Assembly (NCBI GenBank): GCA_035635555.1
Contig: DASQAT010000046.1
Span: 186,001 to 250,000 of the forward strand
DNA: 64,000 nt
Reading direction: 5' to 3'
Source: Candidatus Dormiibacterota bacterium
Lineage (GTDB): Bacteria > Acidobacteriota > Polarisedimenticolia > Gp22-AA2
Shown one piece after another: positions 25,264-36,731 of this stretch (positions are counted from its first letter, which is position 1; each line of letters opens with the position of its first letter). Under the pieces are notes generated by a model. That model searched no databases and was not told the DNA's origin. It saw only the letters and a program-made list of their open reading frames with translations. The position numbers and the translations under genes are program-made.

Positions 25264-26457
25264 TCACTGGGGTGCGCGTCCGAACACGATCGTGCCCAGG
25301 ACGACCGGTCGCGAGGCGCCGGTGACGGAGGGCAGGTTGTTCGGCGCGCCGTGGATCGCCTCGTTGGCCAGAAGGGCGAAGGCGACCGCCTCCTTGGCGG
25401 CGGCCGGCAGGCCGTATTCGTCGCTCTCCTTGATGGAGAGCTCCGGGATGGCGTTCCGCAGCTGCTCCATCATGTAGACATTGCGCGCCCCGCCCCCGGA
25501 CACGATCGCTTCCTCGTACACGTTGTGCGGCATGATGTGGCGGCGGCAGGCGAAGGCGATCGACTCGGCGGTGAAGCGGGTGGCTGTGGCGATCAGATCG
25601 TGGGGTGGCAGCGCGCTGTTCTCCTTCAGGATGCTTTCCAGGAAGGGGCGGCCGAACTCCTCGCGTCCGCAGGCCTTGGGCGGCGGGGTGAGCAGGTAGG
25701 GGTGATCGAGAAGGCGCGCGAGGAGCTCGTCGGCGACCTTCCCCTTTCTCCCGTAGCGCCCGCCGTGATCGAAGGCCTCCCGCCCGCCGGTCATGTGCGA
25801 GACCAGCCCGTCGATCACCATGTTGCCCGGACCCGTGTCGAACCCCAGAACGCGATCGCGGGGCGTATTGGCCGGAATGGCCGTGACGCTGGCCACCCCG
25901 CCGATGTTGATCACCAGCCGTCCCCGGGATCGGTTGTGGAACAGGAGAAAATCCACGAAGGACACGAGGGGCGAGCCCTGTCCGCCCGCGGCCAGATCGC
26001 GCGCGCGGAAGTTCGCCACCGTCGTGATGCCGGTCCGCTCCGCGATGACCGCCGGCTCGCCGATCTGGAGACTGGAGCGTACGGTGATCCCGGTGATGGT
26101 CACGGGCGCCGGAAGGTTCTGCACCGTCTGCCCGTGCGAGCCAATCAGATCGATCGACTGAGGATCGAGACCGGCGCGCTCCGCGACATGCGCGACCGCC
26201 CGCGCGAACAACTCTCCGAGAAGGACGTTCAGACGGCAGAGCGAGGCTGTGTCGCCGCTCCCGGGTTCGGAGCAGCGCAGGATCAAATCGCGGACCTTCA
26301 CCGAATAGTGCAGCGTTTCGTGCCGCAGGAGGCGCCACGAGAGGCCCTCGCCGCTGCCGCGGAGGCGCACCAGTGCCGCATCGACACCATCGGCCGAGGT
26401 CCCGGACATGACGCCGACGACCAGCTTCTCCGGCTTCGCTGCGAGCGCGGCAATCAC
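25264..26457 (-). CDS. anmK: Anhydro-N-acetylmuramic acid kinase
   Basis: A 397-residue sugar kinase that converts 1,6-anhydro-MurNAc to MurNAc-6-phosphate during recycling of cell-wall fragments. The start of the protein has GVMSGTSADGVDAALV, the phosphate-binding motif of the family. LIGSHGQTV, VNIGGVASVT, GFDTGPGNMVID and IVSGGGARNVYMMEQL are also typical. The GTG at 26457 has GAGGT upstream. No murQ or nagZ is adjacent, so it is a lone recycling gene here. It is divergent from the membrane phosphatase. Confidence 0.92.
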   Translation of the reverse strand: MIAALAAKPEKLVVGVMSGTSADGVDAALVRLRGSGEGLSWRLLRHETLHYSVKVRDLILRCSEPGSGDTASLCRLNVLLGELFARAVAHVAERAGLDPQSIDLIGSHGQTVQNLPAPVTITGITVRSSLQIGEPAVIAERTGITTVANFRARDLAAGGQGSPLVSFVDFLLFHNRSRGRLVINIGGVASVTAIPANTPRDRVLGFDTGPGNMVIDGLVSHMTGGREAFDHGGRYGRKGKVADELLARLLDHPYLLTPPPKACGREEFGRPFLESILKENSALPPHDLIATATRFTAESIAFACRRHIMPHNVYEEAIVSGGGARNVYMMEQLRNAIPELSIKESDEYGLPAAAKEAVAFALLANEAIHGAPNNLPSVTGASRPVVLGTIVFGRAPQ

Positions 26458-26585: not shown

Positions 26586-26626
26586 TTGCACGTGAGCAAC
26601 CATGCGGTATCTCATTGACCTGCCGG

Positions 26627-28903
26627 ATGATCTTCCCCTTGGCTTCAGGATCCCGAAGGGGGATCGGTTTCGAAAGACGAGGAATCCTCCTCCTGGTAGC
26701 GCTGATCTCGCTGCCGTTCCTGCAGGGGGCGGCCTACGAAAAGGTGGTCATCCTCGGATTCGACGGCGCCGACGCCGCCCTGGTCGAGCGCTACATGACC
26801 GAGGGAAGGCTGCCCCATCTCAAGGCGCTGCGCGACCAGGGATTCTATGCGCCGCTGCGGCCCACGAACCCGCCGCAGACTCCGGTGTCCTGGGCGACGT
26901 TCACGACGGGACTGAATCCTGGACGGACCGAGATTTTCGATTTTCTCCGTCGCACGGAGGGCACGTACCTTCCTGAATTCGCCATGATCAAGGCCGGTCG
27001 GAAACCGCTCCTGTTCGGCGACCGCAACGCGATGATACTGGGATCGATCTGTGCCGTCCTGTCCGCGGTCCTCGTGTTCTCCGCCGGGCTCCTCCTGCGC
27101 CGAAGCGCGCGTTCGGCGATCCTCGTGGGGCTGGTCGCGGGTGCCGCAGGCGGCCCCGCAGCCGCGTTCCTCTCGCTCCGCTATCTGCCGAAGGAGGTTC
27201 CCACCGCGTCCAATCCCCGCAAGGGATCCCCCTTCTGGACCGCCACGGCGGACGCCGGGTTCAAGGTGAGAGTGATCAATGTTCCCACGACCTTCCCGGC
27301 GGAGGAGCACAAGGACGAGTGGATGCTCTCCGGCCTGGGAGTCCCCGACATGCGCGGCCGCATCGGATCGCCGTCGCTCTACACGTCCGATCCGTCGCTG
27401 TCGCTGCGCGACAACCAGTTCAGCGTCGAGATCGTGCATCTGGGCGCGAAGCGGGGATCCCTCGACACCGTCATCGTCGGGCCCTTGAATCAGCCGTTCT
27501 ACGACTTCGTCCTGGACGACGCGGTCCGCGGCCTCGAGGGGCAGGCCCGTTCGGCGGCTCGCGCCGACATGGAGAAACGCCTGCAGGCGCGCGGCGTGCC
27601 GCGGCGTCTCGATGTCCCCATCCATATCGAGGCCCGCGACGACCACGTCAGCATCGAGGTGGCGGGCGCCAGCCAGACGCTGCGCGTCGGGCAATGGAGC
27701 GAATGGTTCACCGCTCCGATTCATGTGAATCCCATCGTCGATCGGGTGGCGGGGCTCCGCGGGATCATCCGGTTCAAGCTCCTGTCGTTGTCTCCGGAGC
27801 TGAGGCTCTACGCCTCGCCGCTGAATTTCCATCCGGAGTGCCAGCCGGTGGCGTTCACCGGGCCGCGGTCGTTCGCGCAGGAGCTGGTGAAGGAGTTCGG
27901 TCTCTTCAAAACGCTGGGCTGGCCGATCGACACCTGGTCCCTGCCCTCCGGCCTGACCGACGAGCGGCACTTCCTCGAGGACATGGAGTTCACGGCCGCG
28001 AAGCAGCAACAGATGATGGAGCACTTCCTGGAACGAGGGGAGGACCGCCTGTACGTGCAGGTTTTCGACTTCACCGATCGGATCGGCCACATGCTCTGGC
28101 GGCTGTACGATCCCGGGCACCCTCTGTACGACGCGCGCCTGGCGGCCGAGTACGGCCAGGAGATTCCCAAGTCCTACGAGAGGATGGATCGGATCGTCGG
28201 TGAGGCGCAGAAGCGGATCGGGCCCAGGACGGCGCTCATCGTCTGCTCCGATCACGGGTTCGCTTCGTTCCGTCGCGGTGTGAATTACAACACCTGGCTC
28301 GTCAAGAACGGCTTCATGACGCTCCGGCAGGTGACCTCGACCGGGGGCAAGACGCTGGAGGATCTGTTCGACAAGGGGGAGCTCGGCGAGTTCTTCCGGT
28401 ACGTGGACTGGTCACGCACCAAGGCCTATGCCATGGGACTGGGCAACATCTACATCAACCTCATGGGCCGCGAGCCGCAGGGAAGCGTCGTTCCCGGGCG
28501 CGACTACGATGACGTGCGCGCGGCGATCGGTCGCGGGCTGGAGACGCTGGTGGACCCGGAGACGGGAGAGAAGCCCGTCCTGCGCGTCTATCGGCGGGAA
28601 GAGATCTACTCGGGTTTCGACCCGCGTGTCGTGCCCGATCTGCGCGCCGCCAACACGGCTCACTACCGGATCGGCTGGCAGACCGCCCTCGGAGAGGTCC
28701 CCCCGAAGATCTTCGAGGACAACCTGAAGGCCTGGAGCGGTGATCATTGTTCGAACGATCCATCGCTCGTTCCGGGGGTCCTGTTCAGCAACGTGAGCCT
28801 GGCTCGCGGCGACCCGGGGATCGCGGACATCTACCCCACGGTTCTGTCGCTCCTGGGCGTTCCGCCTGTCGAGGGAATCGATGGACGATCGCTCCTGCGC
28901 TGA
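26627..28903 (+). CDS. Membrane-anchored alkaline phosphatase-superfamily protein with internal transmembrane hairpin
   Basis: A 758-residue type I phosphodiesterase/nucleotide pyrophosphatase-like protein. After an N-terminal signal anchor (about 18-35) the catalytic fold shows metal-binding GFDGADAALV, the nucleophile region TPVSWATFTTGLNPG, FDFTDRIGHMLWR, CSDHGF and a late GDH. This metal-ligand set is typical of the superfamily. Two strongly hydrophobic segments (about 136-157 and 164-184) interrupt the domain shortly after the nucleophile region. That is unusual for a globular hydrolase and implies a membrane-embedded hairpin. The start is uncertain: ATG 26627 lacks a clear ribosome site and TTG 26615 is also in frame. 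EnvC and S41 genes follow closely. The substrate is unknown. Confidence 0.8.
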   Translation: MIFPLASGSRRGIGFERRGILLLVALISLPFLQGAAYEKVVILGFDGADAALVERYMTEGRLPHLKALRDQGFYAPLRPTNPPQTPVSWATFTTGLNPGRTEIFDFLRRTEGTYLPEFAMIKAGRKPLLFGDRNAMILGSICAVLSAVLVFSAGLLLRRSARSAILVGLVAGAAGGPAAAFLSLRYLPKEVPTASNPRKGSPFWTATADAGFKVRVINVPTTFPAEEHKDEWMLSGLGVPDMRGRIGSPSLYTSDPSLSLRDNQFSVEIVHLGAKRGSLDTVIVGPLNQPFYDFVLDDAVRGLEGQARSAARADMEKRLQARGVPRRLDVPIHIEARDDHVSIEVAGASQTLRVGQWSEWFTAPIHVNPIVDRVAGLRGIIRFKLLSLSPELRLYASPLNFHPECQPVAFTGPRSFAQELVKEFGLFKTLGWPIDTWSLPSGLTDERHFLEDMEFTAAKQQQMMEHFLERGEDRLYVQVFDFTDRIGHMLWRLYDPGHPLYDARLAAEYGQEIPKSYERMDRIVGEAQKRIGPRTALIVCSDHGFASFRRGVNYNTWLVKNGFMTLRQVTSTGGKTLEDLFDKGELGEFFRYVDWSRTKAYAMGLGNIYINLMGREPQGSVVPGRDYDDVRAAIGRGLETLVDPETGEKPVLRVYRREEIYSGFDPRVVPDLRAANTAHYRIGWQTALGEVPPKIFEDNLKAWSGDHCSNDPSLVPGVLFSNVSLARGDPGIADIYPTVLSLLGVPPVEGIDGRSLLR

Positions 28904-28925
28904 GGGCGTCCCGGCGAGGCCGGCG

Positions 28926-30167
28926 ATGGCGGTGGCCCTGCTGATTCTGATCGCGGCGGCGGCGGGCCGGGGAGTCGAGGCGCGGGCGGCGACCCCGGAA
29001 GAGACGCTCCGCCGCGAGGCGCGCCGCCAGGAAGAGGAGTCGCGGCTGCAGAAGGTCCATCAGGATATCCAGGATCTCAAGGAGCGCCTGGAGCAGAACG
29101 AGAACGCGGCCGGTTCGGTCCTCGACGCGATCGAGGAGCTCGACCTCCGGATGGCGCTCCTGCGGCGGGAATCCGAATCGCTGCGCGGAGAGGTCCGAGC
29201 CACCTCCGAGCGCGAGCGGGTCGCGCGCCGCGAAGCGGAGACCGACGCGGAGCGGCTCCGGGAGACCGAGACCGCCCTCCGGAGCTACCTGCGCGAGACA
29301 TACAAGATCGGTCCGGCCCGTTACCTGCGAGTCGTCAGCGTGGCGTCCTCGCCCGCGCAGGTGGCCGCGGGGTACAGGGCGATCGAGGCGATGAGTCTCG
29401 GCGAAGCTGACCGCGTGGCGACCTACCGCGCCGACCGCGAGCGGCTGGATGCCGCCCTCGCAGAACTGAAGACGCAGGGCGACAGACTGAGGGACCTGGA
29501 GGCCGAGCTGGAGGGGAAGACGAGCGAGCTGCGCGAGGTGCGCGGGCAGAAAGGGGACGTGCTGACAGACCTGCAGCGCGAACAGGCGTCGCAAAAGGCG
29601 CTCCTCCAGGAGCTCGTCCAGGTCGAGAGCGACGTGCGCGCCCTCCTCGATCGCCTGGAGCTTCCGGGCTCCACCGGGCCGGTGCCGTCCCTGGGCTTCG
29701 CGCGCCAGCGCGGGCAGCTGCAGTGGCCCGCCCGGGGTCGGTTCGCCGTTCCGTTCGGGAACGTTCGTCACCCCAGATTCAGCACCGAGGTCCCGCATCC
29801 CGGTGTCGACATCGCCGCGTCCCCGGGCCAGGCCGTGCGCGCCGTGTACGAAGGGCGCGTCGTCTTCAGCGACTGGTTCAAGGGGTACGGTCAGATGGTC
29901 GTGATCGATCATGGAGATTCCTACCTGTCGATCTACGGTCATGTGGACGAGCGCCTGGTCTCGGCCGGGGAGGACGTGTCGACGGGCGACCTGATCGCCC
30001 GGTCAGGTCAGAGCGGGTCGTTCGAGGAGCCCGCGCTGTATTTCGAGATCCGGCACGACGGCAAGCCCGAGGATCCGGCCCGGTGGCTGAAAGGAGCGCC
30101 CGGCGCTCTGGCCCAGCGCAGGGGACCCCCGCAGCGCGGGAGCCGGGAAACCCGCAGGACTCCCTGA
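28926..30167 (+). CDS. envC: EnvC-like murein hydrolase activator (coiled coil plus degenerate LytM)
   Basis: A 413-residue exported protein. It has a signal peptide (about 1-22), a long coiled coil (about 25-245) and a C-terminal LytM/M23 domain. The first metal motif is present (H291, D295 in HPGVDI) and YGH (H339) remains. The last HxH motif is replaced by ALY (370-372), the same kind of loss seen in EnvC, so the domain is predicted to bind and activate amidases rather than cut peptidoglycan itself. ATG 28926 with GAGG six bases upstream is preferred over the frame opening at 28881, which would overlap the phosphatase gene. An S41-family gene follows, as in many genomes. Confidence 0.85.
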   Translation: MAVALLILIAAAAGRGVEARAATPEETLRREARRQEEESRLQKVHQDIQDLKERLEQNENAAGSVLDAIEELDLRMALLRRESESLRGEVRATSERERVARREAETDAERLRETETALRSYLRETYKIGPARYLRVVSVASSPAQVAAGYRAIEAMSLGEADRVATYRADRERLDAALAELKTQGDRLRDLEAELEGKTSELREVRGQKGDVLTDLQREQASQKALLQELVQVESDVRALLDRLELPGSTGPVPSLGFARQRGQLQWPARGRFAVPFGNVRHPRFSTEVPHPGVDIAASPGQAVRAVYEGRVVFSDWFKGYGQMVVIDHGDSYLSIYGHVDERLVSAGEDVSTGDLIARSGQSGSFEEPALYFEIRHDGKPEDPARWLKGAPGALAQRRGPPQRGSRETRRTP

Positions 30168-30181
30168 GGAGTGGAGGTGAA

Positions 30182-31354
30182 ATGAAGATCACGACCGACA
30201 GAAAGCTCATGCTGGTCCTTTCGACAGCGCTGATCCTGTTCACCATCTCCGGCGCGATGATCGGACGGGTGGTGGCCGTGGAGGGGACCTACAGCTACCT
30301 CAAGCTGTTCAACGAGGCGCTGTACCTGATCGTGCACAACTACGTCCAGCCGGTGCAGATCGACGTGCTCATGGAGGGAGCCTACCGCGGGATGCTCGAA
30401 TCGCTCGACCCGGCCAACGAGTACCTGGCGCCCGCGCGGTACGAGCGAGCCTACAAGGGGGAGAGCGACGGGCCGGCGGGGGTCGGCGCCAGCCTGTCGA
30501 AGCGACGGGGCTACATCATCGTCGTCTCGGTCGCCCCGGGTTCGCCCGCCGCGGAGGGCGGCCTCCAGACAGGTGACGTCCTGGTGACGATCGACGGCAG
30601 GTCCACTCGCCAGCTCGGAGTATGGGAAGCCACGCAGGCCTTGTCCGGCAAGCCGGGGAGCAAGACGACCATCAACCTCAGCCCGGTCGATTCGGCGGGG
30701 CGCAAGACCGTGACCCTGGTCCGCAAGGTCCTGGCGCCGCCCGCGCCTTCCGGCTCCGTGGAGCCGGGGGCGATCGGAATCGTGCGAATCAGCGGTCTGC
30801 GCGAGGGGGACGCCCGGCGAGTGGACCAGGCCATCGCCTCCCTCAAGAGACGAGGCGCCACGCGCCTGCTCGTCGATCTGCGCGGCTGCTCTTCGGACGC
30901 GCTGGCCGAGGCGATCGGTACGGCGAGCCTGTTCGTCCGGGATGGCAGGATCGTGTCCGTCGCCGATCGGTACGAGGGGGACAAGTCGTTCCGCGCCGAC
31001 GGGCGCCGGCAGGCCTGGGACAACCCCGTGGCCGTCCTGGTGGATCCGGGAACCGCCGGCGTCTGCGAGGTCCTGGCGGCCGCGCTGCGCGACGACCGCG
31101 ACGCGCCAATCCTCGGGCAGCGCACCTGGGGCGAGGGGGCGGTGCGGAAGCTCCTGCCCCTGCAGCACGGGGACGGTGTGCTCCTGGCCACCGGCAAATA
31201 CCTGTCCCCAGCGGGCAAGGAATGGCACGGTCAGGGACTCCAGCCGGACGTGCCGATCGACGGTCGGCTGACGGATTCCGGTGACCCCCAGCAGAAGAAG
31301 GCGGTCGATTATCTGCGTGGACAGGCCCTCTCCACGGAGCGCAAGGCCGCCTGA
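30182..31354 (+). CDS. S41-family (CtpA-like) protein lacking the catalytic Ser and Lys
   Basis: A 390-residue exported protein: N-terminal membrane anchor (about 8-30), PDZ domain (about 95-170) and S41 tail-specific protease domain. In active enzymes the nucleophile lies three residues before a conserved Glu (SASASE). Here the stretch is TAGVCE, placing G293 at the nucleophile. The general-base Lys of the GKG motif is E318 (GEG). The conserved Asp (D304) remains. Both catalytic residues are thus missing, so this is predicted to be a pseudoprotease that may bind rather than cut its target. It directly follows the EnvC-like gene with a strong ribosome site (GGAGGTGA). Confidence 0.85.
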   Translation: MKITTDRKLMLVLSTALILFTISGAMIGRVVAVEGTYSYLKLFNEALYLIVHNYVQPVQIDVLMEGAYRGMLESLDPANEYLAPARYERAYKGESDGPAGVGASLSKRRGYIIVVSVAPGSPAAEGGLQTGDVLVTIDGRSTRQLGVWEATQALSGKPGSKTTINLSPVDSAGRKTVTLVRKVLAPPAPSGSVEPGAIGIVRISGLREGDARRVDQAIASLKRRGATRLLVDLRGCSSDALAEAIGTASLFVRDGRIVSVADRYEGDKSFRADGRRQAWDNPVAVLVDPGTAGVCEVLAAALRDDRDAPILGQRTWGEGAVRKLLPLQHGDGVLLATGKYLSPAGKEWHGQGLQPDVPIDGRLTDSGDPQQKKAVDYLRGQALSTERKAA

Positions 31355-31517: not shown

Positions 31518-33026
31518 ATGGGCATGCCGAAGACGATTGGGCGCTACGAGATCCTCGAGGAGGTCGGGCGGGGATCCATGGGGGTGGTCTACAAGGCCCG
31601 CGACCCCAGGATCGGCCGCGTGGTGGCCCTCAAGACGATCGCCTTCTCCTTCCCGCTCGGCCCGGGGGAGGAGGAGGAATTCCTGCAGCGTTTCTACCAC
31701 GAGGCCCAGGTCGCCGGGCGCCTCAACCACCCGAACATCGTCACGATCTACGACGTCGGCGAGAAGGGGGACGGCGGCGACGCCTACATCGCGATGGAAT
31801 TCATGACGGGCACGAACCTGCACGAGCTCCTGTCCGGCGGCGGACGTCTGCCGCTGGCCCAGGCGGCCGACGTTTTGGAGAAGCTGGCCCAGGCCCTCGA
31901 TTACGCCCACGATAACGGCGTCATCCACCGGGACATCAAGCCGGCGAACATTCTTCTGACGGATAGCGGGCAGCCGAAGATCCTCGACTTCGGCATCGCG
32001 CGCCTGGCTGCGGGCGGTCTGACACGGCCTGGGAAGTTCTTCGGCACGCCGAACTACATGTCTCCCGAGCAGGTGACCGGGAGCAACGTGGACGGCCGAA
32101 CCGACCAGTTCTCCCTCGGGGTCATTCTCTATCAGCTCCTCACGGGCGAGAAGCCGTTCGTAGGCGACAGCGTCACCGCTATCTCGTATCAGGTGGTCAA
32201 CGTTGAACCGCCCCCGCCCACCAAGCTCAACCCCGCCCTGCGTCCCCCGTTCGACCGGATCGTCCGGAAGGTGCTCTCCAAGAACGCTTCCGATCGATAC
32301 CCTCGCTGCGCCGACCTCTCGAACGATCTGAAAACCGCCGTCGGCGAGTGGCGGGAGTCGGCGGAGAAATCGACACCACCGACTCTGGTCTCACGCGAGG
32401 AGTCTGCATCGGCGGCCGCAGAGACGGGCGAAGGGGGGAAGCGCGGTGTCACTTTTCTGGCCCCGCGGTTCGCGCGGATCCTGGCGGGACACGGCTCACC
32501 CCTCGGAGTCGGGTGGATTGCGTTCCTGGTCTGCCTGGTTCTCCTGGCCGCGGCCCCTTTCCTCCTGTACCGTTCTCCGGCCCGACGCTCGGGCGGGCCG
32601 CAGCCGCTGGGTCTTCTGACGAGTCCCTCCGGCGCGCGGACTGGCGCAGACCCCGCCCTGTCGGGGATCGGGGTTGCCCCGTCGCAGGAGGCGCCCGATC
32701 CGGCCCAGGCCGGCCGCCTCCGGGTGACCCTGTCCCACCGCTTCAATTCCGGGCGCATCGAGGTCCGAATCGACGGCGCAAAGACCCTCGAGGACAGACT
32801 CAGGGGGACCGGCAGCAAGACGCGATTCGTCCGAACCCTGTCGGTGCCGGCGGGCAGCCACCGCGTCGAGGTGCGGGTCACGAGCGGCCATACGTTCGAC
32901 GGAATCGAGGGGATACAGGGGGAGTTCCGTCCCCGGGAGCAGAAGGAGTTGACGGTATCCGTGAGTCCGATCAGCAGGAGGCTCAAGTTGCGCTTCGAGG
33001 AGCCGGAAACGGCGGAGCACAAGTGA
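31518..33026 (+). CDS. Hanks-type Ser/Thr protein kinase with extracytoplasmic domain
   Basis: A 502-residue receptor-type kinase. The kinase domain (about 10-275) has a Gly-rich loop GRGSMGVVYKA, the ATP Lys K39, HRDIKPAN (catalytic D139) and DFG (157-159), with GTPNYMSPEQ after the activation loop, so it should be active. A charged linker leads to one membrane helix (about 331-351). The outer part (about 352-500) is a beta-rich domain of no recognised family, not PASTA repeats. The first of two nearby ATGs has GAGG seven bases upstream. The gene heads an operon with a TPR protein, a lipoprotein and ispE, joined by overlapping stops and starts. Confidence 0.9.
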   Translation: MGMPKTIGRYEILEEVGRGSMGVVYKARDPRIGRVVALKTIAFSFPLGPGEEEEFLQRFYHEAQVAGRLNHPNIVTIYDVGEKGDGGDAYIAMEFMTGTNLHELLSGGGRLPLAQAADVLEKLAQALDYAHDNGVIHRDIKPANILLTDSGQPKILDFGIARLAAGGLTRPGKFFGTPNYMSPEQVTGSNVDGRTDQFSLGVILYQLLTGEKPFVGDSVTAISYQVVNVEPPPPTKLNPALRPPFDRIVRKVLSKNASDRYPRCADLSNDLKTAVGEWRESAEKSTPPTLVSREESASAAAETGEGGKRGVTFLAPRFARILAGHGSPLGVGWIAFLVCLVLLAAAPFLLYRSPARRSGGPQPLGLLTSPSGARTGADPALSGIGVAPSQEAPDPAQAGRLRVTLSHRFNSGRIEVRIDGAKTLEDRLRGTGSKTRFVRTLSVPAGSHRVEVRVTSGHTFDGIEGIQGEFRPREQKELTVSVSPISRRLKLRFEEPETAEHK

Positions 33027-34993
33027 ATCGCGCGGATCGGGCTGTTCGGATCACGCTGCTCCTGGCGCTCTGGGGGGCCGCCGGTGGCGCTCTGTCGGCC
33101 GCCGAGGGTCTGGTCGGGAAGGACCCGGCGCGTCCCGACGCGTACTATCATTATTCGCTGGCGCAGCAGCTCATCATGGCGCGCGACTATCTGCACGCGC
33201 TCGAGCAGATGGAGCACGCGGTGGCCAGCGACTCCTCGCCGTCGCTCCTGCTGGAGCTCGCCCAGCTGCGGTATTCGCTGAACGACCTCGCCGGCGCCAC
33301 CGATCTCGCCGAGAAGGTGGCCGCCGCGAACCCCGACCTCGGGGAAGCCCACCGCCTCCTGGGGGACATCCATCTCAGCCGCGCCCGGGACGGCGGCGAC
33401 TCCGACACCCAGGTGACGCAGGCGATCGAGCAGTACCACAGCGCCCTGCAGGCGGACCCGGCCGACCAGGACACCTGCCGGGCCCTCGCCGAGCTCTACT
33501 ACCACACGGGCCGGCTGAAGGAGGCGGGCGAGACGCTCTCGGAGTACGCGCGGAAGCGGCCGCTGGACGGCCAGATGTCGCTCCTCCTCGGGAAGGTCTA
33601 CGCGCGCACCGGACGCCTGGCGGACTCGGAGGTCCTGCTGCGCCAGACCGTCGCGCGCGACCCGGGGAACCTCGAGGCCGCCGACGCCCTGGCCTCCCTT
33701 CTTGAGTTCGAGAAGAAATACGACGAAGCGATCGCGATTTACCGGGCCGCGTCGGAGGGGAATATCGATTCGGCCTACGTCCGCACGCGCCTCGGCACGC
33801 TGCAGCTGCTGGCGGGGCGCTATCAGGAGGCGATCCGCGAGCTTCAGAGAGCGCAGACGCTCGATCCCGCGGACAGCCGCTCGCTCCTGCCCCTGGCCCA
33901 GGCCTGCGAAGCCGCGGAGGACTTCAAGGGCGCCCTCGAAACCTATGAACGGCTGATCCAGAAGGAGCCGGCGAATCTCGAGGCGCGGTTCCACAGGGCA
34001 CGTCTCCAGCACAAGGAGGGGGATGCGGCCGGGGCCCTCAAGGGGTATCAGGACATCATCGATCTCGCCACCGGTCGCGGTGCGGTGACCGACCGCGAGG
34101 CCGCGATCCTGGCGCTGGTCTACTCGCAGATCGGGATCCTGCACATGGACGGACGCGAGTACGCCGCGGCCGTGGAAGCGTTCACCCAGGCGCTCAATGC
34201 GGCGGACGAGCCGGGGCCGGAGCTGTTCCTGCTCCTCGGCCGCGCCGAGCTCGAGGCCGGCAGCCCCGCGGAGGCGCGCCGTGTCTCGGCGGAAGCGAGG
34301 AAACGATTCCCCGCCGACCTCGACGTCAAGGTGTTCCAGGGCGAGATCCTGATCGCATCGGGAGACGAAGGCGGAGCGCGTGACTATTACAGGGGAGTCC
34401 TGCGGGACGCCTCGGGCTCTTCCGAGGCGTACGGGCGCGTCTCGGAGGCCCTGCTGCGCCGGAAGCGGTATACCCTGGCGGATCTGTTCCTCAAGGAGGG
34501 CACGCGCAAGCATCCGGAGGACGATGGCCTGCTGTTCGCGCGGGGCGCCGCCCTGGAGCGTGTAGGGCGCGCGGCCGAAGCGGAGCGTCTCCTGTCCCGC
34601 GCCATTGCCATCAATCCAAAGAACGCGATGGCCCTCAACTACCTCGGCTACATGCTGGCCGACCGCGGCGTCAAGCTGAAGGAGGCCCTGGCCTACGTGC
34701 AGCGGGCGCTGGCGCTGGAACCCAACAACGCCGCCTACCTCGACACTCTGGGCTGGGCCCAGTTCAGGCTGGCGCTCTACGCCGACGCCGAAAAGAGCCT
34801 GCGCGCCGCCCTCGCCTCCGACGGGAGCGATCCCACGATCCGCGAGCACCTCGGGGATCTCCTGATCGCCACGGGACGCGAGGAGGAAGCGTTGCGCGAA
34901 TGGCAGGCCGCGCTGCAGCGCGGTCACGAGGAGCCCGAGAGGGTGCGGCAGAAAATCCTGAAAGCCCAGGGCGGCCGCCCCGTGACGCCGTGA
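33023..34993 (+). CDS. Exported multi-TPR protein
   Basis: A 656-residue protein with an N-terminal signal peptide (about 1-26) and then tetratricopeptide repeats over almost its whole length, for example YHYSLAQQLIMARDYLHALEQME and NAMALNYLGYMLADRGVKL. TPR arrays act as protein-binding scaffolds; this one should lie in the periplasm or on the outer membrane. The GTG start overlaps the kinase stop (GTGA) and its stop overlaps the following lipoprotein start, so the three proteins are likely made in fixed proportion. The repeat architecture is clear; the partner is not known. Confidence 0.8.
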   Translation: MNRADRAVRITLLLALWGAAGGALSAAEGLVGKDPARPDAYYHYSLAQQLIMARDYLHALEQMEHAVASDSSPSLLLELAQLRYSLNDLAGATDLAEKVAAANPDLGEAHRLLGDIHLSRARDGGDSDTQVTQAIEQYHSALQADPADQDTCRALAELYYHTGRLKEAGETLSEYARKRPLDGQMSLLLGKVYARTGRLADSEVLLRQTVARDPGNLEAADALASLLEFEKKYDEAIAIYRAASEGNIDSAYVRTRLGTLQLLAGRYQEAIRELQRAQTLDPADSRSLLPLAQACEAAEDFKGALETYERLIQKEPANLEARFHRARLQHKEGDAAGALKGYQDIIDLATGRGAVTDREAAILALVYSQIGILHMDGREYAAAVEAFTQALNAADEPGPELFLLLGRAELEAGSPAEARRVSAEARKRFPADLDVKVFQGEILIASGDEGGARDYYRGVLRDASGSSEAYGRVSEALLRRKRYTLADLFLKEGTRKHPEDDGLLFARGAALERVGRAAEAERLLSRAIAINPKNAMALNYLGYMLADRGVKLKEALAYVQRALALEPNNAAYLDTLGWAQFRLALYADAEKSLRAALASDGSDPTIREHLGDLLIATGREEEALREWQAALQRGHEEPERVRQKILKAQGGRPVTP

Positions 34994-35841
34994 TCGACAG
35001 GCCGGGGCCGCGGAAGGGGAGAGTCTCGGCGTGGCGGGGGCCCGTCGCGTGCCTCGCCCTTCTTGCCAGCGCCTGCGCCGGCGCACATCTGCCCGACACT
35101 CAGCCGCCGTCATCTCCCGCGGGCGCGCGGGGGTATCGGGCGCTGTTCCGCGGGGAGGCGGAGGGTCCCGGCGGCAAGGGTCGTTTTCGCGTGGCCGTCG
35201 CCATCCTTCCGCCGGATCGTATTCGTCTCGAGTTCTTCGGTCCCGTAGGCGGCCCGCGGGTGATCCTCGCGGCATCGTCCGACCAGACCGTCGCACTCCT
35301 GCCCTCCGCCCGCGCCTACGAGAGAACGCAGTCGTCGGCGGAGGCGATCGACAGGATCCTGGGGATGCCCGTGGACGTGCCTGGGCTGGTCGCGCTACTG
35401 ACGGGACGTCCGATGTGCGCGCAGGAATCGATGCGCGTCGAGGTCATGACCCGCCCGGCGGCGACCTTCGGCCGCACGCTGTCGTGGTACCAGGTCAGCT
35501 GCCCACCCGCGGACGTCCGCTATCAGGCACGCTGCGAGGATCGCGGCGGAACGCTGTTGTCGGCGACCGTGAGCGAGGGGATCACCGGTGCTATCATCCT
35601 CGAGGCGGAGTATGGCGACTATGAAAAGGGGCTGGGACCGCGCTGGCCCCGGCAGGTGAAGCTGCGGCTCCTCAAGAAGGACGCGACCGTCCATCTCGCC
35701 GCCGTGGAGGGCCCGTGGGCCAGCGACGTGCCCGAGTCGATCTTCACACCGGACGTTCCCGAGGGCTTCGAGAGCAGACCACTCACCCTGTTTCCATCCG
35801 GTCCGGGTCTCCCGGGGGGAGAGGCCGGCCTGACGCGCTGA
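34990..35841 (+). CDS. LolB/DUF4292-like lipoprotein
   Basis: A 283-residue lipoprotein with a basic start, hydrophobic stretch and lipobox LASAC (Cys29). The mature part has the pattern of outer-membrane lipoproteins of the LolB/DUF4292 type (YRALFRGEAEG, FRVAVAILPPDRIRLEFFGPVGG, a central helical region and a C-terminal beta-sheet), though the match is by pattern rather than strict motif. A role in envelope lipoprotein or lipid handling is inferred. The GTG at 34990 overlaps the TPR stop (GTGA). Its own stop appears to overlap an unusual CTG start of ispE. Confidence 0.6.
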   Translation: MIDRPGPRKGRVSAWRGPVACLALLASACAGAHLPDTQPPSSPAGARGYRALFRGEAEGPGGKGRFRVAVAILPPDRIRLEFFGPVGGPRVILAASSDQTVALLPSARAYERTQSSAEAIDRILGMPVDVPGLVALLTGRPMCAQESMRVEVMTRPAATFGRTLSWYQVSCPPADVRYQARCEDRGGTLLSATVSEGITGAIILEAEYGDYEKGLGPRWPRQVKLRLLKKDATVHLAAVEGPWASDVPESIFTPDVPEGFESRPLTLFPSGPGLPGGEAGLTR

Positions 35842-36731
35842 TCCGGCTGAAGGCACACGCCAAGATCAACCTCTCCCTCAAGATTGTCGGCAGGCGGCCC
35901 GACGGCCTGCACGATATCGAGACGATCGTGCAGACGATCAGCCTGCACGACACCCTCACGCTCGAGTCCCGGGACGAGGGGCTCTCCCTGCAGGTGGACG
36001 ATTCCGCGATTCCCAGCGGGCCGGACAACCTGGCCTGGCGGGCAGCAGCCGCCCTGCCCGCGCCTCGCCGGGCGCCGCGCGGGGCGCATCTCAGGATCCA
36101 GAAGGGGATTCCCGCGGGGGCCGGGCTGGGCGGTGGCAGCAGCGACGCCGCCGCCACTCTGATCGGACTGCGCTCGCTGTGGGGCCTGGATCTGCCCGAA
36201 CGGGAGCTGGAGACCATCGCCGCGACTCTGGGGGCCGATGTGCCGTTCTTCCTGCACGGCGGCACGGCCCTGCTGACGGGGACGGGGACGGTCGTCGACC
36301 CCCTGGAGGACGCTCTCGGGTACCAGATCCTGCTCGCCTTTCCGGGGGTGCCTCTCGCGACGCGGGAGGTCTACGCCCTGGCCTCGGCGTCGTTGACATC
36401 TAGCTTGAAAATCAGTAGCATGGCACGCTTCAGACACACCCTGCAGGGCGGCCTCCCGAGGGAGGTCGAGATGTGGGTGCGCGCGGGCAACGACCTGGAA
36501 CCGTTTGCGCGCTCCCTCTGTCCTCCCATCGCGGAGATCCTGGACCGCCTGCGGACAGCGGGGGCAACGGCCGCTTCCATGACCGGAAGCGGGTCGGCCG
36601 TTTTCGGCATTTTCAGGGACACGGCCGCTCTGGGACGAGCTCTCGCGTCGGTGGGGGCCTCGGGCCATGCCGCTGTTCGGTGTGTGCCCGTCGGACGGAT
36701 GGAGTACCGGAGACACGCGGGTTTGCTATAG
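35838..36731 (+). CDS. ispE: 4-diphosphocytidyl-2-C-methyl-D-erythritol kinase
   Basis: A GHMP kinase of the non-mevalonate isoprenoid pathway, phosphorylating CDP-methylerythritol. It has LKAHAKINLSLKIVGRRPDG at the N-terminus, the ATP motif PAGAGLGGGSSDAA, and MTGSGSAVFG near the C-terminus. The family always starts one or two residues before the KAxAKINL motif. No ATG, GTG or TTG exists there: the only candidates are CTG 35838, which overlaps the upstream stop as CTGA, or CTG 35847. ATG 35715 would overlap the lipoprotein gene by about 127 bases and add 41 unrelated residues. CTG 35838 gives 297 residues, normal for IspE. Gene order ispE-spoVG-prs is classical. Confidence 0.85.
   Translation: MIRLKAHAKINLSLKIVGRRPDGLHDIETIVQTISLHDTLTLESRDEGLSLQVDDSAIPSGPDNLAWRAAAALPAPRRAPRGAHLRIQKGIPAGAGLGGGSSDAAATLIGLRSLWGLDLPERELETIAATLGADVPFFLHGGTALLTGTGTVVDPLEDALGYQILLAFPGVPLATREVYALASASLTSSLKISSMARFRHTLQGGLPREVEMWVRAGNDLEPFARSLCPPIAEILDRLRTAGATAASMTGSGSAVFGIFRDTAALGRALASVGASGHAAVRCVPVGRMEYRRHAGLL

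Follow-up and report, generated by a model that had tools for sequence, protein, structure and literature searches.

A predicted S41 pseudoprotease encoded beside EnvC and widespread in Acidobacteriota

The 64,000-nucleotide stretch of acidobacterial DNA analysed in this study (the window) encodes an EnvC-type protein followed by a CtpA-like protein of 390 amino acids that, judged by an ungapped alignment and its predicted fold, is a catalytically dead CtpA, an S41 pseudoprotease. Short S41 proteins without the Ser-Lys pair were found in 105 genomes representing 70 of 80 sampled family-level groups of Acidobacteriota. We tentatively suggest, at somewhat less than even likelihood, that these proteins form an ancient and nearly universal acidobacterial pseudoprotease that arose from an envC-linked CtpA by repeated loss of activity, would control hydrolases without catalysis and would carry a C-terminal Ala-Ala as a binding tag. 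An earlier note on this DNA had described the two proteins of the window as a non-catalytic pair and had proposed a regulatory complex for daughter-cell separation; the phylum-wide loss, the copies not linked to EnvC and the C-terminal Ala-Ala go beyond what it had seen. In the literature searched, no earlier account of an S41 pseudoprotease that is linked to EnvC or spans a phylum was found, although its absence is not thereby proven.

The EnvC-type protein and the S41 protein of the window

The EnvC-type protein (28926..30167, forward strand) consists of a signal peptide, a coiled coil and a degenerate LytM domain. The longest open reading frame spans 28881-30167, and the ATG at 28926 within it is the likely start, giving a signal-peptide-like N-terminus. 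The protein matched EnvC structures in the PDB (8i6o, 1.9e-34; 8hd0 and 6tpi, 1e-27) and Pfam Peptidase_M23 (1e-29). The NCBIfam EnvC equivalog model gave 5e-33 and 114.5 bits, under its cut-off of 270 bits, presumably reflecting a model made for a narrower group. Analysis of the LytM/M23 domain (29793..30077, forward strand; Pfam, residues 305-399 of the 428-residue ORF) revealed an intact HxxxD half-site, HPGVD, while the HxH containing the second histidine is replaced, with ALYFEIR at this place in the window and SLYFEIR in E. coli EnvC. A motif census of about 48 related EnvC proteins found an intact HxH in none. The claim that this motif is gone, as in amidase activators, is thus borne out; EnvC proteins ordinarily lack HxH in their LytM domain, and its loss is in itself no novelty. 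The coiled coil followed by such a domain is the architecture of EnvC, and the genome also encodes an FtsX extracellular domain (FtsX_ECD, 1e-16) and an amidase (Amidase_3, 6e-55). Structure matches, Pfam and motif together identify the product as an EnvC-type protein and predicted amidase activator. It resembles E. coli EnvC (gene order gpmM-envC-yibQ) in the coiled coil, the LytM domain without HxH (LYFEIR) and the presence of FtsX and an amidase in the genome, and differs in retaining the HxxxD half-site; yibQ follows envC in E. coli, whereas the dead S41 gene follows it in the window.

The S41 gene (30182..31354, forward strand) runs from the ATG at 30182 to the stop codon at 31352-31354. 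Its ATG lies 14 bases past the EnvC stop and is preceded by a Shine-Dalgarno-like GGAGGTG (30173..30184 with the ATG). The product comprises an N-terminal helix, a PDZ domain, the cap/core and a C-terminal helix, and Pfam detected both the S41 and the PDZ domain. The match to TIGR00225 (prc) gave 2e-58 and 197.9 bits and did not reach the curated cut-off of 218.6. A phmmer search of the PDB matched P. aeruginosa CtpA (7rpq) at 6e-44, with an alignment free of gaps over the segment from the catalytic Ser to the Gln. At the position of the nucleophile Ser302 stands G293 (31058..31060), at that of the general base Lys327 stands E318 (31133..31135) and at that of Gln331 stands R322 (31145..31147), all on the forward strand. 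The same alignment places A78 (30413..30415, forward strand) at the position of His84, the accessory histidine of CtpA (PMC11021448). The nucleophile column was fixed independently by the crystal entry of the S302A mutant (7rqh), in which the site mutated to Ala corresponds to G293. The numbering given in the earlier note for the lost nucleophile and lysine is therefore exact.

The losses extend to the substrate site. The Asn and Gly of the DLRNNPGG motif (Asn236/Gly238), fully conserved among the active acidobacterial paralogs, are lost in the S41 protein, while D232, R234, E296, G312 and G317 are invariant across dead and active groups. The carboxylate-binding loop of the PDZ domain is GLGI in active relatives and is changed in dead copies, often to D-x-G-L; going by this sequence change, canonical binding of C-termini by the PDZ domain of the dead protein is doubtful. 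The PDZ domain and the overall fold had been claimed to be retained, and modelling of the S41 protein recovered the CtpA fold: the AlphaFold2 model (alignment of 88 relatives) has a pLDDT of 93.4, and Foldseek, with CtpA as the best PDB matches, returned H. pylori CtpA (9jr1, 2e-35), the P. aeruginosa CtpA-LbcA complex (8sxf_B, TM 0.79) and CtpB. A shifted alignment that would bring Ser and Lys back elsewhere is ruled out by the ungapped PDB alignment and the model. The model overlaps resting CtpB (4c2e, TM 0.72) better than active CtpB (4c2c, 0.57), which hints weakly at a resting-state conformation, the comparison being that of the dead protein's model alone.

Occurrence across the phylum and loss of the active site

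The search covered 41 genomes (the window's own and its relatives), then 297 genomes of the phylum and then one representative for each family still missing, and the catalytic columns were read in the fetched loci. Alignment of S41 neighbours of EnvC across the phylum, which the earlier note had proposed as a check, revealed the same losses: a dead short S41 protein adjoins EnvC in 40 families and is encoded away from EnvC in 30. Recurrence of the same losses on this scale excludes chance. The dead copies are mostly about 360-450 amino acids long. The nucleophile position is occupied by Gly in 84 of the 105 copies, and the Lys position is variable (R, L, M, D, A, E and others). A separate long S41 protein (open frames of about 530-690 amino acids) has Ser, Lys and Gln intact in all examples read, and the genome of the window also encodes such a protein (L001). 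Comparison of the dead S41 gene and EnvC revealed pairwise dN/dS values of 0.12-0.31 for the former, similar to or below those of the latter; the dead gene is under purifying selection.

Ten genomes with an unlinked dead S41 gene, from families f18, f20, f30, f36, f40, f62, f63 and f64, were examined for EnvC and FtsX (G107, G276, G255, G119, G216, G189, G159, G160, G271 and G298). The search detected no FtsX extracellular domain in these ten and no EnvC of full length, LytM matches being partial or nil, while both FtsX and EnvC were found in the EnvC-linked control families f33, f28 and f49. Retention of the dead S41 protein where EnvC is absent implies at least one role independent of EnvC. 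In family f4, EnvC stays at the syntenic locus without an S41 gene and the S41 gene lies elsewhere, beside a kinase gene.

A tree was built with the catalytic columns left out. One of its clades (100/99) unites the active paralogs with P. aeruginosa CtpA, and the short S41 proteins of Acidobacteriota fall opposite to it. Among the short proteins is family f34, whose EnvC-linked members include three proteins with Ser, Lys and Gln (L075, L150 and L152) as well as two broken ones (L153, Gly/Lys/Gln; L151, Gly/Arg/Gln). Its sister family f48 has Gly/Lys/Arg (L081, also EnvC-linked). These proteins form a natural graded series of catalytic loss. Scored by parsimony at a single site, the tree favours a history of 2 changes, with one loss and one regain in f34. 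The triad proteins of f34 also retain Asn236 and the GG motif, and for this reason we prefer the reading that f34 kept its activity, which would imply repeated losses elsewhere. Because some f34 species have an intact triad and their sister species a broken one, the step from protease to pseudoprotease can be tested directly in this family.

The C-terminal Ala-Ala

The S41 protein of the window ends in Lys-Ala-Ala (31343..31351, forward strand), an instance of a C-terminal Ala-Ala conserved in the family and often preceded by Lys. It was found in 64 of the 105 dead copies (61%) against nine of the 407 other genes at the same loci (2.2%). The copies are kin and not independent, so a binomial statistic is too generous; more weight attaches to the spread of the ending across many families. 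All three f34 proteins with a triad end in Ala-Ala, and none of the long active S41 paralogs compared does. The linker ahead of the two alanines has a variable length of 31 to 70 residues, and codon usage for the alanines is ordinary, which points to selection on the protein. An origin at the DNA level, such as an overlapping signal, is excluded by this codon usage together with the varied stop codons.

C-terminal processing proteases and PDZ domains recognise C-termini, and the ending therefore looks like a recognition tag. It probably serves as such, being read for example by the PDZ domain of the pseudoprotease or of the active CtpA paralog. In the predicted model the tail lies at the end of a helix, which together with the altered PDZ loop counts against self-recognition; candidate readers of the tail include the active paralog and a neighbouring subunit.

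Candidate functions and gene neighbourhood

CtpA/Prc proteases govern the cutting of the bacterial cell wall through degradation of hydrolases. Comparison outside the phylum for an EnvC-linked S41 protein was made with the P. aeruginosa literature, where envC-ctpA-PA5135 is an operon (PMC12569750). P. aeruginosa CtpA (PA5134) resembles the window's S41 protein in following envC directly, in domain order and in fold. It is an active protease that degrades hydrolases with Ser302, Lys327, Gln331 and His84, whereas the window's protein has Gly, Glu, Arg and Ala at these positions; the trans-interacting loop of CtpA (376-411) is apparently absent from the shorter 390-residue protein. The earlier note was thus right that the window's arrangement differs from EnvC with an active protease. 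Hydrolases of P. aeruginosa, LytM/M23 enzymes among them, are trapped in vivo by the CtpA-S302A mutant (PMC6050968). LbcA has about equal affinity for CtpA(S302A) and for the wild type (PMC11021448).

A candidate for the LbcA half of such a system lies close by. Downstream of the S41 gene, the window contains in order a Ser/Thr protein kinase (31518..33026, forward strand; synteny), a periplasmic-type TPR protein (33023..34993, forward strand; sequence and position before lolB-ispE), a LolB-like protein and IspE. The order LbcA-like TPR protein, LolB-like protein, IspE (33023-36731), kept in the genus, is that of the lbcA operon of P. aeruginosa, lbcA-lolB-ipk (PMC6050968). The TPR protein is conserved in the class and is a repeat protein whose best natural PDB match is LbcA/PA4667 (3e-31 over 461-639); fold comparison with LbcA is not specific, the repeats matching many TPR proteins. 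Its N-terminus, VNRADRAVRITLLLALWGAAGGALSAAEG, has no cysteine, i.e. the lipobox is absent, unlike LbcA. The LbcA match and the gene order together suggest that relatives of both halves of LbcA-CtpA lie together in the window.

Trapping by CtpA-S302A, its binding to LbcA and the operon organisation make a natural holding form plausible. By analogy with that trap, the best explanation, to which we give about an even chance, is that the pseudoprotease belongs to the machinery of cell-wall hydrolases as a CtpA that holds its clients without catalysis. The protein would be located in the periplasm, with its N-terminal helix as an anchor, would keep the resting-state scaffold of CtpA and would bind cell-wall hydrolases or their activators without cleaving them, as a holder or brake and possibly jointly with the LbcA-like TPR protein. 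Where FtsEX-EnvC exists, the likely client would be EnvC or its amidase; EnvC could not be the sole client, being absent with FtsX from the ten unlinked genomes. The likeness to CtpA-S302A lies in the missing nucleophile, the retained scaffold and the nearby gene for an LbcA-like protein with lolB-ispE. Unlike the laboratory mutant, the S41 protein is natural, has lost four catalytic positions and has an altered PDZ loop.

A dedicated complex of EnvC and the dead CtpA, gating the activation of amidases in daughter-cell separation, as the earlier note proposed, is a narrower possibility that we regard as rather unlikely. That both members of the pair are non-catalytic holds, as EnvC has no HxH and the S41 protein lacks equivalents of Ser, Lys, Gln and His; their adjacency in 40 families, at a spacing of about 17-20 bases within the window's genus, the purifying selection and the FtsX and Amidase_3 genes of the genome all agree with a regulatory complex. 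As a whole account this reading does not stand up to the 30 families with unlinked copies, the ten genomes among them without FtsX and full-length EnvC, and the separation of the two genes in f4, and the adjacency itself may derive from an active envC-ctpA operon. From the sequences compared, the pseudoprotease is probably regulatory, with roles beyond EnvC and daughter-cell separation. It is less likely still that it serves as a client or decoy. In that case its Ala-Ala end would present it to the long active S41 protein, and this paralog would either degrade it or be titrated by it. Such a role would agree with the recognition of substrate C-termini by C-terminal processing proteases, with an ending frequent in dead copies and absent from long active paralogs, with the variable linker and ordinary alanine codons, and with the active paralog that the window's genome and the other genomes read for such a protein possess. 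However, the active members of f34 also end in Ala-Ala, which uncouples the tail from deadness, and the C-terminus ends a helix in the model.

Two further readings concern the S41 protein itself. The protein might cleave with substitute residues such as Cys295, which follows the lost Ser by two positions and is conserved within family f1 (GTAGVCE, GTSGACE), but this is very improbable: sister families have Ala or other residues at this position, a Lys or His partner is absent and the substrate-site residues Asn236/Gly238 are lost too. That the gene is a decaying pseudogene has next to no likelihood, as nothing but the loss of catalytic residues speaks for it; it is refuted by the dN/dS values, the full-length frames, the conserved fold motifs and tail, and conservation in so many families. 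If the client-holding reading is true, a non-cutting CtpA kept under selection throughout a phylum would show that holding suffices and would be the natural counterpart of the CtpA-S302A trap. Annotation pipelines based on the S41 domain would label these pseudoproteases as peptidases. C. difficile CspC, MamO and the S41-related repeats of IRBP likewise have a protease fold in a non-catalytic role, but belong to other families or to other biology than an EnvC-linked S41 pseudoprotease.

Upstream of EnvC, the window encodes a type I phosphodiesterase/AlkP-type protein (26615..28903, forward strand; Pfam PF01663, 2e-32; synteny), which occupies this place in most of the class and in several other families. 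The order phosphodiesterase, EnvC and S41, followed by the TPR protein and IspE, is held through much of the class, and its first three genes recur in other families. The Ser/Thr kinase gene adjoins the pseudo-S41 gene in the window's genus and in f4 (L102, L104 and L105). A gene for anhydro-N-acetylmuramic acid kinase (anmK, peptidoglycan recycling; 25264-26457) is also nearby in the genus, on the opposite strand.
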